DNA of 33,708 nucleotides, taken from assembly GCA_023248875.1 (NCBI GenBank), contig JAHFDT010000015.1, positions 1-33,708 of the forward strand, written 5' to 3'. This DNA is from Myxococcales bacterium (GTDB taxonomy: Bacteria; Myxococcota_A; Polyangia; Palsa-1104; SHYY01). Shown in pieces: positions 1-31,371 of the stretch; the first letter of the stretch is position 1; each line of letters starts with the position of its first letter. The notes under the pieces are model-generated. The model made no database searches. It was given only the letters and a program-made list of their open reading frames with translations, and was not told the DNA's origin. Made by a program: the position numbers and the translations under genes.

Positions 1-32
1 GGAGGCCGACGGTTCGATCCCGTTCAGCTCCA
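1..32 (+). tRNA. tRNA-Ala, 3' part only (cut by window edge)
   Basis: The first 32 bases fold as the end of a tRNA. A five-base T stem (GACGG/CCGTT, one G-T pair) closes a TTCGATC T loop. It is followed by a seven-base acceptor strand CAGCTCC and discriminator A at 32. The CAGCTCCA end closely resembles bacterial tRNA-Ala, whose 5' side would be GGAGCTG. The anticodon lies outside the window, so the isotype is inferred from the acceptor end only. The next bases are CAA, so CCA is not encoded. Confidence 0.8.
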
Positions 33-56
33 CAAATTATCGGTTATAGTACGGAC

Positions 57-869
57 GTGGTGATTACGGGTATCAGCATCGCCGACAGTGCCTTACCACC
101 GGAACATTGGCACCATCTTCCGGCGCGTCTCGGACGCATGGACCGGCTTTGTGCGCTCGCCGTAGTGGCCGTCGACCGTGCGCTCGCCGGCGCGTGCATC
201 GATCCTGCGGCATGGCAGGGCGAGCGGGTCGCTACGCTCGTCGGCACCCAGTTCGGCTGCATGGCGACCAACGAAGCCTACTATCGCGAACTGCTCTTGC
301 AGGGGGCGAGTCCCAGGGTATTCACCTATACGCTGCCTTCGTCGCCGCTCGGCGAAGTGACGATCCATTTTGGCGCGCGCGGTCCGGGGGAGACCTGGGT
401 ATCGGGTCCCCTGGCTGGCCTAGAGGCGCTCGGGCGCGCGGGGCGTCTCTGCGAAACCGGGCGCTCCGATCTGGCCATTGTGATCGCCGTAGAGGCGGCG
501 CCACCATCGCTGGTGGAGATGGGTTTTTCGCTGAAGGATGGAGCCATCGCGCTGGTGGTCGAGCCCGAGTCGTCCGCTCGGCAACGGGGCGCACCAGTGC
601 TCTGTTCGGTCTCCCAAGTCATGTCTCAGGATGTACTTGCCCCAGTGCTCCGACCGAGGCGTAATGCGCCCGTCGGAAGCCGGAACATCCCGGCTGGCCG
701 CGTTGCTCGTCGCTCGCGTACCCTTCAGGTATGCCACGCTCCTCGCGCCTTGCCACCCGGGCGCCCCGGACTTCCTGGGTGGGTGCATTACGCCTCGGTC
801 GGAGCACTAGGAGCCGTAGAACCACTTCTCGAGCGACTTAGACTTGTTTGCGGAGATACCGTGCTTTGA
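57..869 (+). CDS. beta-ketoacyl-synthase-like protein (N-terminal KS fold) carrying an in-frame palindromic insertion
   Basis: The first ~185 residues look like the N-terminal half of a ketoacyl synthase (Ketoacyl-synt_2 type). It opens with VITGI, has a GRMDRLCALAV helix and a VGTQFG strand, and then PSSPLGEV and GLEALGRA. The position aligned with the catalytic Cys (TAC-A-SG in active enzymes) reads SGP-L-AG, so Cys appears to be Pro and the protein is probably not a condensing enzyme. Residues 197-251 are encoded by a 165-bp palindromic element (644-808). After it, GAVEPLLERLR resembles the helix expected late in such domains. Without the insert the protein would be about 215 aa, a normal size for stand-alone members. 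GTG codons at 57 and 60 are both possible starts. The 3' end overlaps the convergent gene by 32 bp. Such proteins often sit in fatty-acid or aryl-polyene-like clusters, but no partner genes are visible here. Confidence 0.6.
   Translation: MVITGISIADSALPPEHWHHLPARLGRMDRLCALAVVAVDRALAGACIDPAAWQGERVATLVGTQFGCMATNEAYYRELLLQGASPRVFTYTLPSSPLGEVTIHFGARGPGETWVSGPLAGLEALGRAGRLCETGRSDLAIVIAVEAAPPSLVEMGFSLKDGAIALVVEPESSARQRGAPVLCSVSQVMSQDVLAPVLRPRRNAPVGSRNIPAGRVARRSRTLQVCHAPRALPPGRPGLPGWVHYASVGALGAVEPLLERLRLVCGDTVL
644..808. repeat. 165-bp palindromic element with perfect 24-bp inverted ends
   Basis: Bases 644-667 and 785-808 are perfect inverted copies (24 of 24), beginning AGTGCTCCGACC. Homology continues imperfectly inward. 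An inner hairpin GCCGG-aacat-CCCGGC lies at about 676-692. The element is 165 bp, exactly 55 codons, and is open in the host frame. Because it is palindromic, both strands translate to peptides that start LRPRRNAP and end HYASVGALG. No target-site duplication is obvious. It encodes no transposase, so it would be a non-autonomous palindromic element, comparable in style to the palindromic elements found inside rickettsial ORFs. Confidence 0.7.
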
Positions 870-1758
870 CGAGAGCACCCGTTTCAAAGGCGTCCTTCTC
901 GGTGGCATTCAAGTAATTGTCCTTCGTTTCAATGTATTTCTGAGACAATCGGGCATAGGCGATCATCGCCTTCAGTACCTCATCTCGCCCGTGGGGAGCG
1001 GCATCGAGGAGCGCTTTGGGATCATCGGCGTTCTCAAGCATTTGCGGGTCGATCCCATACTTTCTCGCGCTCTCGTAGAAGTGGTTCCTGGCATCGTCGA
1101 GCGCCTTACCTACGGTCTCGATATCTTCCTCGGCCTTGCCATGTTTGACCGCGCCGGCGCCATAGTTGGCCTGGTACCACTGCTGCGCCTCTTGGCCCTT
1201 GGCTCCATCCGCGTTGAGTGGACAGGCACAGGCCTCGACGGCGACATTCTTGGGCAGGTAGAGTGCCGCCGCCAAGGCATCCACGGAGGACAATCGGTTC
1301 GCCTCGAGCTGCGCCACCCGGAAAAACTGCTCGCAGTGGCGCGTCTCATGGTAGACGGTGTCGGCGAGGTTGGCGGCTGCCTCCGCATCCGGCTTGGGGA
1401 TCGCAAACGCACGGCTGCAGAGCGCCAATGTCCAGGTAGATCTGCGGAATTCACCATAGGTCGTGGCCCCCAGATCGGTCAGCAGTAGACTCGGCACAGG
1501 AACGCCCAGCGGTTGGAGCTCCGCCACGGCCGCTTCGAATAGATGTTGGGCGCGCTGCTCGGGGGTGAAGTGATGCCAGTGATGGATCACATGGTGCGCC
1601 ACTCGAACAAAACGGTCCACTGCCATTGAGCTGGAGATGCCGGTGTGGTGTGAGGCGCCAACATTCCCTTTCGCAGGGGAGGACTCCGATAGTCGCTGGG
1701 CCGTGGCGGAGCTCGACTGCTCATCGGCCTTGCGCTTTGGGTGGGAGGCGTGGGGCAT
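838..1758 (-). CDS. uncharacterised HExxH-motif protein
   Basis: I do not recognise the family. The central part (about residues 40-230 of this form) is helical and contains YHETRHCEQFF, an HExxH signature as in zinc metallopeptidases. A Glu follows two residues after the second His. Whether it is a true protease is not shown. There is no signal peptide or membrane segment. A GTG start at 1830 would add 24 residues that are His/Ser/Glu-rich and probably disordered. The ATG at 1758 is preferred here because GGAGG lies five bases upstream, though those bases also encode Glu codons, so the longer form stays possible. If GTG 1830 is used, the gene begins 9 bp after pssA ends. It is last in a five-gene run. 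Its 3' end overlaps the convergent ketoacyl-synthase-like ORF by 32 bp. Confidence 0.7.
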   Translation of the reverse strand: MPHASHPKRKADEQSSSATAQRLSESSPAKGNVGASHHTGISSSMAVDRFVRVAHHVIHHWHHFTPEQRAQHLFEAAVAELQPLGVPVPSLLLTDLGATTYGEFRRSTWTLALCSRAFAIPKPDAEAAANLADTVYHETRHCEQFFRVAQLEANRLSSVDALAAALYLPKNVAVEACACPLNADGAKGQEAQQWYQANYGAGAVKHGKAEEDIETVGKALDDARNHFYESARKYGIDPQMLENADDPKALLDAAPHGRDEVLKAMIAYARLSQKYIETKDNYLNATEKDAFETGALVKARYLRKQV

Positions 1759-1839
1759 CGCCTCCTCCTCGCTCTCTGGGGAGGCATGGGGATGCGCTGG
1801 GTGCTTCCTGTGCGAATGGTGCCGCTCCACGCAATACCC

Positions 1840-2757
1840 CTATCTTGAATGATCGGCGCTGCGGCGAAGAAGTTGCTCGTCCGGGATCTCTTGGGCCGGC
1901 CGGTCCTCCTGGTCGCTATCGTAAGCCCCGAGTTCGGCCAGCACCTCTTCGTCGGTCTGGGCGCCGCCATCCGCCTCCTGCTGCGCCGCTGCCTCCAACC
2001 GGCGTCGACGATAAAAGATGACCTCCTCGAACAGGCCGAGGGCGACATAGGCGGTCATGAGGCAGATGAAGACAAAGGCGGAGGGCACCCGCTTCCAGGA
2101 GATCGCCACCACTGCACCGCCGATGGCACCGATGCCGAGGGTGACGGAGCGGCGTGATAGGCGCACATCTTTGAAGGAGCGAAAGTGGACCCGGCTCACC
2201 ATCAAATAGGAGAGCGCCACGACGACGATGGCCAGCGCGACCTGGCCGACATCGACGAAGGAGCCGCCGAGCTGATGGTTGGCGACCACCAGCGAGACCA
2301 GCACCAGCGCTGCCGCGGGAACCGGCAGGCCGAGAAAGTATTTGCTGGGACTCTTCTTGGTATCGGCGTCGTTCATCGCCAGGACGTTGAAACGTGCCAG
2401 CCGCAGGGCTGCTGCCGCGACGAACACAAACGCGATCGCCATGCCGAGGTGGTGCTGCTCGATGCGATCGAGCCCCCACCGGTACATGAGCAGCGCCGGG
2501 GCGACGCCAAAGGTGATCACATCGGCGAGGCTATCGAGCTGCAGCCCGAGCGCGCTCTGGGTTTTGGTGAGGCGCGCGACGCGGCCGTCGGCGACATCGA
2601 AAAAGACCCCGAAGTAGATGGCGATGGCCGCCTGATAGAGCGCGCCCATCGAGGTCTTGCCGCCGCTAGCAATGGTGGCGATCGCGAAAAAACCCGAGAA
2701 CACGCTGGAAAGCGTGAAGAGATTGGGCAGGATGAAGAAGGTCTTACGTAGGTTCAC
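1840..2757 (-). CDS. pssA: CDP-diacylglycerol--serine O-phosphatidyltransferase
   Basis: This integral inner-membrane enzyme joins CDP-diacylglycerol and serine to make phosphatidylserine, the precursor of phosphatidylethanolamine. The CDP-alcohol phosphotransferase motif is complete: D57-G58-x2-A61-R62-x8-G71-x3-D75-x3-D79, with the last Asp as general base. About seven hydrophobic segments follow the N-terminal NLRKTFFILPNLFT. The last ~55 residues are acidic, Gln/Glu-rich and probably cytoplasmic and disordered, longer than in minimal family members. The start is GTG at 2757, seven bases after truA, so translation is probably coupled. No phosphatidylserine decarboxylase gene is in the window. 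Confidence 0.93.
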   Translation of the reverse strand: MNLRKTFFILPNLFTLSSVFSGFFAIATIASGGKTSMGALYQAAIAIYFGVFFDVADGRVARLTKTQSALGLQLDSLADVITFGVAPALLMYRWGLDRIEQHHLGMAIAFVFVAAAALRLARFNVLAMNDADTKKSPSKYFLGLPVPAAALVLVSLVVANHQLGGSFVDVGQVALAIVVVALSYLMVSRVHFRSFKDVRLSRRSVTLGIGAIGGAVVAISWKRVPSAFVFICLMTAYVALGLFEEVIFYRRRRLEAAAQQEADGGAQTDEEVLAELGAYDSDQEDRPAQEIPDEQLLRRSADHSR

Positions 2758-2764
2758 CCACCCA

Positions 2765-3541
2765 TCATAGCACGGGCGGGCGCGGCCAACGGGTGGGCAG
2801 CGCGAGATCGTAATCCACTCGCACGAGCGTCAAACCGTGGGGTGGGGCGGTCGGCCCGGCGACGCGTCGGTCGCCCTGCTGGAGTAGCGCCGGGATGAGG
2901 CTCGGCTCGGCCCGGCCGCGGCCAATGTCGACCAGGGTGCCGACGAGAATTCGCACCATGTGTTTGAGAAAGGCATCGCCGTAGACCGAGAGGTCGATGG
3001 CACCCGCCTGACCGACGACTTCGACGCCGTAGATCGTGCGAACGCTATTTTTCCGATCGCAGTCGGCGGCCTGGAAGGCGGCGAAATCGTGGCGGCCGAC
3101 CAGGAGCGGGGCGGCGGCGCGCATGCAGTCGCAGTCGAGCAGCGGCAGAAGGTGCCATTCGGTGCGGTGCTGGATCGGCCGGCGCGCTTCGCCGTTCCAG
3201 ATACGGTAGCGGTAGAGCTTGCCGCGCGCGTCGCGACGTGGGTCGAAGTCAAGCGGGACTTCGTCCGCCGCTACGACGGCGATGGTGCGTGGTAGCAGGG
3301 CGTTGAGGCCGCGCAAGAAACCGAGGGGCGCGACCGAGCTCGAGGTGGTGAAGGCGGCCACCTGCCCTTCGGCATGGACGCCGGAATCGGTGCGCCCAGC
3401 CCCGCGCAGCGCGAGCGACTCGCCGGTCATTTGGGTGATCGCCGCTTCGATGGCGCTCTGCACCGATGGGCCATTGGCTTGCCGCTGCCAGCCGACAAAG
3501 TCGGTACCGTCGTACTCGATCACGAGGCGAATGCGCCTCAT
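2765..3541 (-). CDS. truA: tRNA pseudouridine synthase A
   Basis: TruA converts uridines 38-40 of the tRNA anticodon arm to pseudouridine. The protein is 258 aa, a normal length. The N-terminal IEYDGTDFVGWQRQ and the catalytic segment GAGRTDSGVHAEGQ (nucleophile Asp52) are intact, as is the KHMVRILVGTLVDIGRG stretch near the C-terminus. Its ATG shares one base with the stop codon of the upstream beta-barrel gene (TGATG), and pssA starts 7 bp downstream. It therefore sits in the middle of a translationally coupled run that mixes envelope and housekeeping functions. Confidence 0.96.
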   Translation of the reverse strand: MRRIRLVIEYDGTDFVGWQRQANGPSVQSAIEAAITQMTGESLALRGAGRTDSGVHAEGQVAAFTTSSSVAPLGFLRGLNALLPRTIAVVAADEVPLDFDPRRDARGKLYRYRIWNGEARRPIQHRTEWHLLPLLDCDCMRAAAPLLVGRHDFAAFQAADCDRKNSVRTIYGVEVVGQAGAIDLSVYGDAFLKHMVRILVGTLVDIGRGRAEPSLIPALLQQGDRRVAGPTAPPHGLTLVRVDYDLALPTRWPRPPVL

Positions 3542-10022: not shown

Positions 10023-11273
10023 CTAACGTTTCTTGCCCAGGCGAATCTGCACTTCGTCGACGGCCCGTTCCGATGCCTCGATCACCTTGAGCAGCACCAG
10101 CCCGATCCGCACCGACTCGCCAATCCTCGGGATGTGGCGCAGCCGGTCGAGCATCAACCCCGCGACCGTCTCATAGTCGGGCCCCTCCGGTAGCTCCAGC
10201 TTGAGCGCGCGATTGACCTCCAAGACGGTGGTCTGCGCGCGTACCCGCCAACTCCCCTCAGCCTCCTTGCGAATCGGCGGTGGAGCCACGTCGTACTCGT
10301 CCTCGATCTCACCGACGATCTCTTCGAGAATGTCCTCGACCGTGACGATGCCGACGGCACCACCGTACTCATCCACCACCACAGCGATGCCCTTGCGCGA
10401 GCGCTGCAACTCGACCAGCACATCGAGGCACGGCTGATTTTCCGGCACGTAGCTCGGCGGCTGCATCAGCTCACTGACCGTCCGATCGCGCTCCCCTTTG
10501 AGCCCTGCGCTCAGTACCGAAAAGGAGTGCACGATGCCGACGATGCGGTCGATGCGTTCCCGATAGACCGGGAACCGGGTGTAGCCCTTCTCTTGAATCT
10601 CGCCGGATGCAAAATCTACCGACGCCGTGTCTTCGAGCGCCGCCAGCGAGGACAGCGGCACCATGACGTCGTACGCGGTTCGGTCGCCGAAGTCGAAGAT
10701 GCGCGAGATCATCCGCCGCTCGCCTTCCGTGATCTCGCTGCCCCGGGCCGCCTTGCCCTTCATGACGAGTTCGAGCTCTTCACGGGTGACCAACTTGTGG
10801 TCCTCATCGAGGCCTGCGATGCGCACCGCAGCGGTCGTGAAATGCGCCATCAGCCAAACCAGTGGAGAAAGCAGGCGCTGCGCCGCCCACAATACATAGC
10901 AGAGCCGCGGCGCCAGCCGGTCAGCATGTTCGCGCCCCAGCGATTTGGGAACAATCTCGCCGAAGATCACGAGGACGGGAGTGAGACCCAGCAGCGTGTA
11001 GAGTCCAGCGCGCGCTTCGCCATAGCGCTCCGACAGTGCGATCGTCATGGTGATGGTGGCGGTCACGATGCCGATCTGGGTCCCCATCAGGGTAGTCGCG
11101 AGCAGCCGCTGCGGCGACGCGAGCAGGTGGAGGAGCAGTCGATCGGCCCGCCGTCCCGCTGCGGCGCCGTGACGGATCCTGAGCCGATCGGCGGCGACCA
11201 CCGCGATCTCCGATCCGGAAAACAGCGCCTCGATGAGCAGACAGGCGGCCGCTATCCAAAGGGCAGTAGTCAC
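10023..11273 (-). CDS. CNNM/CorC-type hemolysin-family membrane protein
   Basis: The protein is 416 aa. The N-terminal CNNM (DUF21) domain has four hydrophobic segments within residues 1-165, starting SGSEIAVVAADR and including FGEIVPKSLG. A CBS-pair region follows at about 195-310, with DVMVPLSSL, RFPVYRERIDRIVGIVH and VVDEYGGAVGIVTVEDILEEIVGEI. The C-terminal CorC_HlyC domain covers about 325-410. Family members are linked to magnesium or cobalt homeostasis; the substrate here is inferred only. Its ATG overlaps the stop of the upstream paralogue by four bases (11270-11273). Confidence 0.9.
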   Translation of the reverse strand: MTTALWIAAACLLIEALFSGSEIAVVAADRLRIRHGAAAGRRADRLLLHLLASPQRLLATTLMGTQIGIVTATITMTIALSERYGEARAGLYTLLGLTPVLVIFGEIVPKSLGREHADRLAPRLCYVLWAAQRLLSPLVWLMAHFTTAAVRIAGLDEDHKLVTREELELVMKGKAARGSEITEGERRMISRIFDFGDRTAYDVMVPLSSLAALEDTASVDFASGEIQEKGYTRFPVYRERIDRIVGIVHSFSVLSAGLKGERDRTVSELMQPPSYVPENQPCLDVLVELQRSRKGIAVVVDEYGGAVGIVTVEDILEEIVGEIEDEYDVAPPPIRKEAEGSWRVRAQTTVLEVNRALKLELPEGPDYETVAGLMLDRLRHIPRIGESVRIGLVLLKVIEASERAVDEVQIRLGKKR

Positions 11274-15653: not shown

Positions 15654-15884
15654 CGTTGGTCGCTGCCTTGATGCGACGGAAACGGGACTGTGCCTCCTTA
15701 CCAGTTCGCCGGGCGCATGGCCGGCGCGCATCGCGCGGCGTTCGGCATCGTGCCGGTAACGCTCACCGCACAGCTGCGTTCGTTCGTCCTCGAGGAGCAC
15801 GTCGAGCGTCTGCATACCAGCTTCGACGACCAGCTCACGTAGCCCGCGCCTCAGGGTGAACGCCAGCACGGTTAGCGGCAGCAT
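15654..15884 (-). pseudogene. remnant of an IS256-family (mutator) transposase, N-terminal part
   Basis: About 77 codons on the minus strand resemble the N-terminal region of IS256-type transposases. The stretch RELVVEAGMQTLDVLLEDER, then QLCGERYRHD, then RRAMRAGHAPGELV matches the usual order of a helical start, an LCG.RY motif and a GH.PGELV motif. The catalytic DDE domain is absent. After VSVASRQR the sequence loses resemblance and runs into the promoter region of the cysteine-synthase-like gene. No terminal inverted repeats were found. It is a fossil, probably not expressed. Confidence 0.6.
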
Positions 15885-15895
15885 GCGCTGACTTT

Positions 15896-16095
15896 GATAC
15901 CGACGCCGTTCCCGATGCCGTCACCGTCTTTGATACCGACTCCGATACCGACGCCGATGCCGATACCGATACCGATTCCGCCCCCGACTCCGCCCCCGAC
16001 TCCGATACCGACGCCGACACCGATACCGACGCCGATACCGACGCCGTCTCGGACAGCGATTCCGATATCGACAGCGATGCCAAAACCGATGTCAT
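15896..16095. repeat. degenerate hexanucleotide tract, about 33 units of CCGAYN
   Basis: About 200 bp are built from six-base units such as CCGATA, CCGACG, CCGATG and CCGACA, with a few CCGCCC and CCGTCT variants. Because the period is two codons, every frame is open. One plus frame gives alternating Asp-Thr/Ala/Ser, another Pro-Thr/Ile, and minus frames give Ser-Val/Ala and Gly-Ile/Val. The Asp-X frame (codons starting at 15896) is open from about 15860 to beyond 16200 but has no start codon. It resembles acidic linkers of secreted proteins, so this may be a gene remnant. It directly abuts the transposase fossil. Confidence 0.75.
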
Positions 16096-16252
16096 ACGCC
16101 GTCTCCGTACTAAACCTCACCCCGGTTCCCGATGGTGCCCGGACCGCCCCTGTCTTTTGACGCTTCGCGTGATGCTTTCACCCGCCAGCGGGGCGTACCC
16201 GAACAGCCAGCTCCAATCAGCGAAAACCTGAATCATTTTGAGGGTAACCTGC

Positions 16253-31278: not shown

Positions 31279-31309
31279 GCGGAGAGGAGGAGCAACCCCT
31301 CCTCTCCGC
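31279..31309. terminator. bidirectional terminator-like hairpin
   Basis: A perfect 12-bp stem (31279-31290 with 31298-31309, GCGGAGAGGAGG / CCTCCTCTCCGC) with a 7-base loop lies between two convergent genes. It starts 8 bp after the 31270 stop. There is no clean T tract on either side, so termination efficiency is uncertain. Confidence 0.6.
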
Positions 31310-31371
31310 GCAAAAGTTAGAAGGAATATCCCGCGCCGCGTCCGCGCAAAAGTTAGAAAGAATACCCCGCG
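31305..31371. repeat. 31-bp direct repeat, period 36 bp, duplicating the end of the barrel gene
   Basis: Copies at 31305-31335 and 31341-31371 differ at two positions. Each contains, on the minus strand, codons for Ala-Gly-Tyr-Ser-Phe and a TAA stop. The second copy is the true C-terminus of the 31353-31952 gene. The first copy is a duplicate of the tail and stop lying downstream. The period equals 12 codons. It overlaps the right arm of the hairpin by a few bases. Confidence 0.8.

Follow-up and report, generated by a model that had tools for sequence, protein, structure and literature searches.

A Palindromic Mobile Element Inserted in Frame in Protein Genes of a Myxobacterial Genome

How can a palindrome of 165 bp lie inside a protein gene without closing its reading frame, and does the host protein continue beyond it or end there? 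The question is raised by a ketoacyl-synthase-like gene in the window, the 33,708-nucleotide stretch of Myxococcales DNA analyzed here, in which an earlier note had suspected a protein-invading palindromic element. Its description of the structure holds: the inverted ends are perfectly complementary over 24 bp (94% for arms 641-671 and 781-811), and the host frame crosses positions 644-808 in 55 codons without a stop. No stop interrupts this phase on the reverse strand either, both peptides running VLRPRRNAP ... HYASVGA(L), in keeping with the LRPRRNAP...HYASVGALG given in the earlier note. As for the other two phases of the "+" orientation, one meets a stop at codon 7 and the other is the frame that runs into TAG wherever the CTAG junction is intact. 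Folded as RNA, the 165 nt form a single hairpin with an energy of -109 kcal/mol (z = -10.3; none of 200 shuffles equal it), and DNA folding gives z = -9.8; in an mRNA such a hairpin could bring cleavage or pausing. An Rfam scan of window positions 1-3000 returned no match, and the element is absent from the phage and plasmid records searched. It is not a chance palindrome, since the same genome carries further copies (table 1).

Table 1. Positions of the host gene, the element and its further copies (window coordinates unless a contig is named).
Feature	Position	Strand	Remarks
Host gene, ketoacyl-synthase-like	57-869	+	PF00109 N-terminal domain, residues 15-157; element after ~residue 196
Palindromic mobile element proper	645-807	.	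G...C, 163 bp
Left terminal inverted repeat	644-667	+	AGTGCTCCGACCGAGGCGTAATGC
Right terminal inverted repeat	785-808	-	perfect complement of 644-667
Left target junction	642-645	+	CCAG, decayed CTAG; TA copy reads CA (643-644)
Right target junction	807-810	+	CTAG; TA copy 808-809
Element core	686-768	.	imperfect hairpin
Copy 2	C2:36364-36528		96% identity
Copy 3, left half	C85:7420-7572, contig end		95% identity
Copy 3, right half	C252:1-158, contig start		96% identity

The source genome (G000) is a 4.0-Mb draft of 304 contigs, 88% complete, in which the window belongs to contig C59. The element occupies three unrelated sites there, with 95-96% identity among copies, and is thus mobile. A search of the genome with the terminus pattern matched the window copy and those on C2, C85 and C252 and nothing else, while relatives of the core number about a dozen besides the full copies. 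The search for copies inside open reading frames that the earlier note had called for therefore yields two further sites, both within protein genes. All three sites use the sole phase open on both strands (VLRPRRN...HYASVGAL), and both orientations occur.

The ends of related elements in two sister genomes (G318 and G319) clarify the boundaries. These read TAGTGC...GCACTA, preceded by C and followed by G or A, giving CTAG at both sides; hence we take the element proper to be the 163-bp palindrome from G to C. Most sister copies have TA at both ends, and the left junction of the window copy is read as a decayed CTAG by comparison with the CTAG found at both of their ends. Every one of the three sites has lost one intact TA copy (CCAG at the left in C59 and C85, CTCG at the right in C2), and we therefore infer, rather than observe, insertion at the TA of CTAG with duplication of the TA. 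The net insertion would then be the 163-bp palindrome plus a 2-bp TA copy, that is 165 bp or 55 codons. The net multiple of three in two hosts argues for such a 2-bp duplication, or for a length-equivalent 4-bp duplication of CTAG: were the TA part of the element and not duplicated, the insertion would amount to a net 167 bp, putting the two other host genes out of frame.

What of the window gene itself? Its orthologues extend well beyond the insertion point, and their C-terminal part is missing here. After the motif TLPSSP the host has 118 residues without the element, against 145-202 in nine complete orthologues, and it falls short by 55-80 residues. The claimed resumption of the host protein (GAVEPLLERLR) comes down to 19 codons with low third-position GC, whose product scores -1.4 bits against the profile of the orthologue C-terminus, a value reached by 213 of 500 shuffles. 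AlphaFold2 models the ketoacyl-synthase-like half well and leaves the element disordered. Given the short C-terminus, the unrecognised tail and the drop in third-position GC, truncation or decay of this gene copy is the most likely reading. The alternative already voiced in the earlier note, that the element simply truncated the gene and the residues after it are there by chance, thus fits better and is likely to be correct for this copy, even though GALGAVEPLLERLR in the host vaguely resembles GALGAAPLLAAARF of the orthologues. The C-terminus may also have been lost by a deletion later than the insertion, and truncation of the window gene leaves two in-frame hosts elsewhere unexplained. That the 55 residues belong to the fold of the protein family is excluded, the same DNA sitting in two other genes. 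One sequence (L055) that seemed to be an orthologue ending near residue 195 was dropped because its contig stops there.

The second host, on contig C2, encodes a multi-membrane protein of 597 residues; among 58 related genomes, 47 have relatives. The element falls between membrane segments 1 and 2. When it is removed, the host sequence WRILLV/LGLVCLAALAWAWHLRW (the slash marks the junction) aligns ungapped with WFVRLALGATLVLSLVCAWRLRW of the nearest orthologue (L073), and 23 residues separate W from RW in both. Some 500 conserved residues follow downstream, and GC periodicity of the coding type is present on both flanks. In the AlphaFold2 model most of the insert has low confidence and the host helices are confident; a Foldseek search with this model gave AftB, a GT-C arabinosyltransferase, as best PDB match (E = 1.6e-9), so that the host is a predicted AftB-like GT-C glycosyltransferase. 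The element lies near the N-terminus, and translation may start after it.

The third host is the cleanest in-frame case. One reading frame enters the element on C85 and another leaves it on C252 in the same phase; the site is thus split over two contigs of the draft, yet the halves joined without the element give a two-lobed protein of 175 residues. In four related genomes orthologues are uninterrupted across the junction (43-45% identity, E 1e-25 to 1e-30), and because they span it they also show that both contig ends belong to a single insertion. Conserved blocks lie on either side (LGVxAVQV... and ARAFGHVYCRWLRHGEIEPGFDLTEF), with the element in a Pro-rich linker. In hosts 2 and 3 alike, the residues flanking the element are therefore adjacent in uninterrupted orthologues, as the earlier note had asked of its own host. 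The element is inserted in frame in at least two otherwise intact genes and lies at the broken end of a third. Judged by their sequences, the two intact genes carry frame-neutral insertions and would be translated across them; the idea of a protein-invading element stands for these hosts outside the window and is weakest for the window copy from which it arose.

These observations are best explained, we consider probable, by a non-autonomous palindromic MITE with a CTAG/TA target and a length, divisible by three, that lets hosts read through. Like other MITEs it has terminal inverted repeats, contains no transposase gene and occurs in several dispersed copies. It would insert at the TA of CTAG and duplicate the TA; starting with G and ending with C, it would restore CTAG at both ends. 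The phase CTA-GTG-CTC-CGA... is open in both orientations and 165 bp are added net; an element landing at a CTA-G in frame would thus be frame-neutral, contributing 55 mostly disordered, Arg/Pro-rich residues before the host protein continues. Insertion in a stop codon (xxC-TAG) would keep the stop intact, and insertions elsewhere would truncate the host protein and mostly be lost, presumably through selection against their harm.

To place the element in a wider context we compared it with the 58 related genomes and with a class set of 318 genomes. The core is 75-85% identical to palindromic elements in 18 of the 58, with up to 14 copies per genome. Compensatory double changes occur at 7 of 19 predicted pairs and several unpaired positions are invariant, a pattern indicating that the hairpin shape is kept, mismatches as well. 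Families with different ends and duplication lengths (TA versus 3 bp) have this core in common. Within the source genome most core relatives end in GGGCCC, measure mostly 159 bp and are flanked by 3-bp duplications (TAA/TAA, TTA/TTA, CAA/CAA, TTG/TTG), for a net 162 bp in most copies; no copy of the GGGCCC families was found in gene interiors of that genome. In the two sister genomes the net length is 160 or 161 bp, not a multiple of three, and 9 of 11 scorable sense-coding ends stop exactly at the element-boundary TAG, the two others, both weak, reading CTA-G. At the same loci only 3 of 49 CTAG sites within reading frames but outside elements (about 6%) are stops, for a binomial P of ~6e-10 that is rough, given that coding calls were made by the analyst, that one element contributes both of its ends to the 11 and that insertions may share ancestry. 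The 165-bp family is the only TA family with a length divisible by three and the only one seen inside genes. Gene-internal insertions that break the frame are thus apparently purged, as the sister families, whose lengths are not divisible by three, gather at stops and are nearly absent from gene interiors. The terminal pattern was found in two MAGs only among public genome contigs, one of Nannocystineae and one deltaproteobacterial. Overall, the core defines a class-wide palindromic superfamily, probably of Polyangia/Myxococcota and apparently undescribed. A peptide search of the 318 class genomes gave strong matches only to the genome's own copies; other matches (E ~1e-4 to 1e-2) were driven by composition, many with stops.

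Several individual loci of the superfamily deserve mention. In the source genome, copies of the 159-bp GGGCCC family with 3-bp duplications (L005-L011) lie mostly at or a few codons from the ends of genes; several, L006 and L007 among them, coincide with the stop codon. Another GGGCCC-family palindrome (L012; C254, ~10409-10567; TTG/TTG duplication) is located in T/TGA, and the 119-codon reading frame reads through it for 54 further codons before the original TGA; here a different family of the superfamily has produced a C-terminal fusion. Solo half-elements of ~23-31 bp with one terminus (L109, L112, L114 and L117), some at stop codons, are reminiscent of single REPs or of remnants of hairpin deletion. 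In G318 (C245:183-251; L121) the right terminus GCCTGGGYCGAGGCACTAGGGCTAC is repeated three times in tandem behind one element copy. Two candidates were set aside: L096 (VLRPGRNP...), considered as an in-frame relative, continues as ordinary-looking coding sequence and lacks the palindrome, and L097, considered as a phase-A case, has a right flank that in the analyst's reading is an open frame ending at the element TAG, its left-flank score being discounted because the model was trained on L097 itself.

Is the element adapted to proteins, or has chance placed it in frame? Its placement suggests selection, that is, adaptation to life in proteins; this is suggested rather than proven, because 33 of 68 CTAG sites in sampled sequence of the source genome are in CTA-G phase, and from the target phase alone all three sites would be in frame with P ~0.11-0.16. 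An ordinary MITE without protein adaptation, combining a CTAG target with a length divisible by three by chance, in hosts that may be non-functional, is accordingly given slightly less than an even chance. It agrees with the lower of these values, with the truncated window host and with the lack of any sign of constraint on the peptide: all four codons that differ between the C59 and C252 copies, which share the same phase, change the amino acid, and so the insert looks tolerated rather than conserved. However, long conserved stretches of coding character flank the insert on either side in hosts 2 and 3, and the near absence from gene interiors of the sister families whose lengths are not divisible by three, with their enrichment at stops, points to a selective filter. 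More tentatively, and with the odds against it, the superfamily, with its core under differing ends and duplications, may normally hide in stops, one lineage of length divisible by three and open on both strands having evolved an intragenic life.

In-frame palindromes inside unrelated protein genes recall the Rickettsia palindromic elements (RPE). These and the Wolbachia palindromic repeats are ~100-150 bp long, have open frames and form in-frame fusions within a variety of unrelated genes for proteins, and a guanylate kinase bearing such an insert is translated and active (PMC2229807). As with RPE, we find a palindromic repeat forming a single long hairpin, in frame in several unrelated genes (two clean hosts and one truncated) with the used phase open. 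The likeness drawn here is one of behavior: the present element belongs to a different phylum, is GC-rich, measures 163 bp, has a CTAG/TA target and a class-wide core, and occupies three sites, against 44 RPE integrations reported in R. conorii (PMC10969869). By analogy it would work like an RPE, without being classed as one. The earlier note rightly traced this behavior to Rickettsia, but it is not confined there, in-frame intragenic elements being on record from Rickettsia and Wolbachia and for ERIC/RU, open-frame Correia, Coxiella QMITE1 and the REPs of several species (PMC2229807, PMC3733652, PMC10969869). Correia and ERIC/RU-1 MITEs are likewise TA-flanked long hairpins, though of other lineages and sequences. 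The Correia elements of 107/155 bp have an open-frame variant inside open reading frames and a stop-rich variant between genes (PMC2229807), a split paralleled here by the 165-bp and 160/161-bp families. The literature searched, which covered few subscription journals, held no myxobacterial report of in-frame palindromic elements. The element extends in-frame protein invasion to a myxobacterial lineage and to GC-rich, free-living bacteria. It also offers a natural comparison between families with common core and target, of 160-161 bp at stops and 165 bp inside genes, so that tolerated and protein-adapted elements become directly testable across relatives. Furthermore, a common core under unrelated ends raises the question of what recognises or maintains the hairpin.

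Which enzyme moves the element is a related question. By analogy, a TA-targeting DDE transposase of IS630 type would act in trans; a partner IS would have the ends GTGCYYCGACCSRGGCGTAATG. IS630 prefers CTAG targets. RUP, a short palindromic MITE linked to IS630, also targets TA but is described as intergenic (PMC2229807). The genome holds remnants of IS630-type DDE_3 genes whose ends differ from those of the element; a scan of the IS630 (DDE_3) loci and of the Y1/RAYT loci of the genome detected no element ends within 6 mismatches, and hence no IS630 copy whose ends match, and a search of a sister genome for end pairs 1-2 kb apart saw no autonomous copy. Separately, a TA-flanked palindrome (TAGACCGACCTCACGTTAAG...CTTAACGTGAGGTCGGTCTA) lies directly behind an IS630-type DDE_3 fragment on another contig (L145; C167, ~205-370). 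In an alternative scenario the element would be of REP/REPIN type, moved by a RAYT (Y1) transposase, its TAG ends representing the tag tetranucleotide. GTAG/CGTC REPs are palindromes at gene 3' ends that are reported to supply TAG stops to flanking reading frames and sometimes lie within reading frames (PMC3733652); the solo half-elements would suit this origin, as would the presence of six genomic matches to Y1_Tnp, of which five exceed the family cut-off. Yet the arms are far longer than a REP of 20-40 bp, the palindrome measures 163 bp, the base before the TAG is variable, and the junctions point to a probable target duplication. With no linked Y1 gene, and with frame neutrality requiring a duplication (the 167 bp expected otherwise would shift the frame of hosts 2 and 3), mobilisation by RAYT is less likely than by a TA-targeting DDE transposase, and we regard a REP/REPIN origin as improbable. 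That the three sites reflect an assembly artefact or chimera is hardly credible: the draft is fragmented and the C85 and C252 copies stop at contig ends, but the two remaining copies are internal to their contigs and have coherent flanks, independently assembled public genomes contain sister families, and orthologues confirm the join in host 3.

Finally, a few features elsewhere in the window are recorded. Positions 1-34 resemble the 3'-terminal part of a tRNA gene, truncated where the contig begins (GGTTCGATCCCGTTCAGCTCCA), and contig C131 overlaps the first ~160 bases with 97% identity. A 12-bp periodic array (CCGATACCGACG...) spans 15864-16107, one strand of which translates to an acidic, Asp-rich repeat. 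At 31305-31371 two 31-bp direct repeats (TCCGCGCAAAAGTTAGAAGGAATATCCCGCG), 94% identical, are found 36 bp apart.
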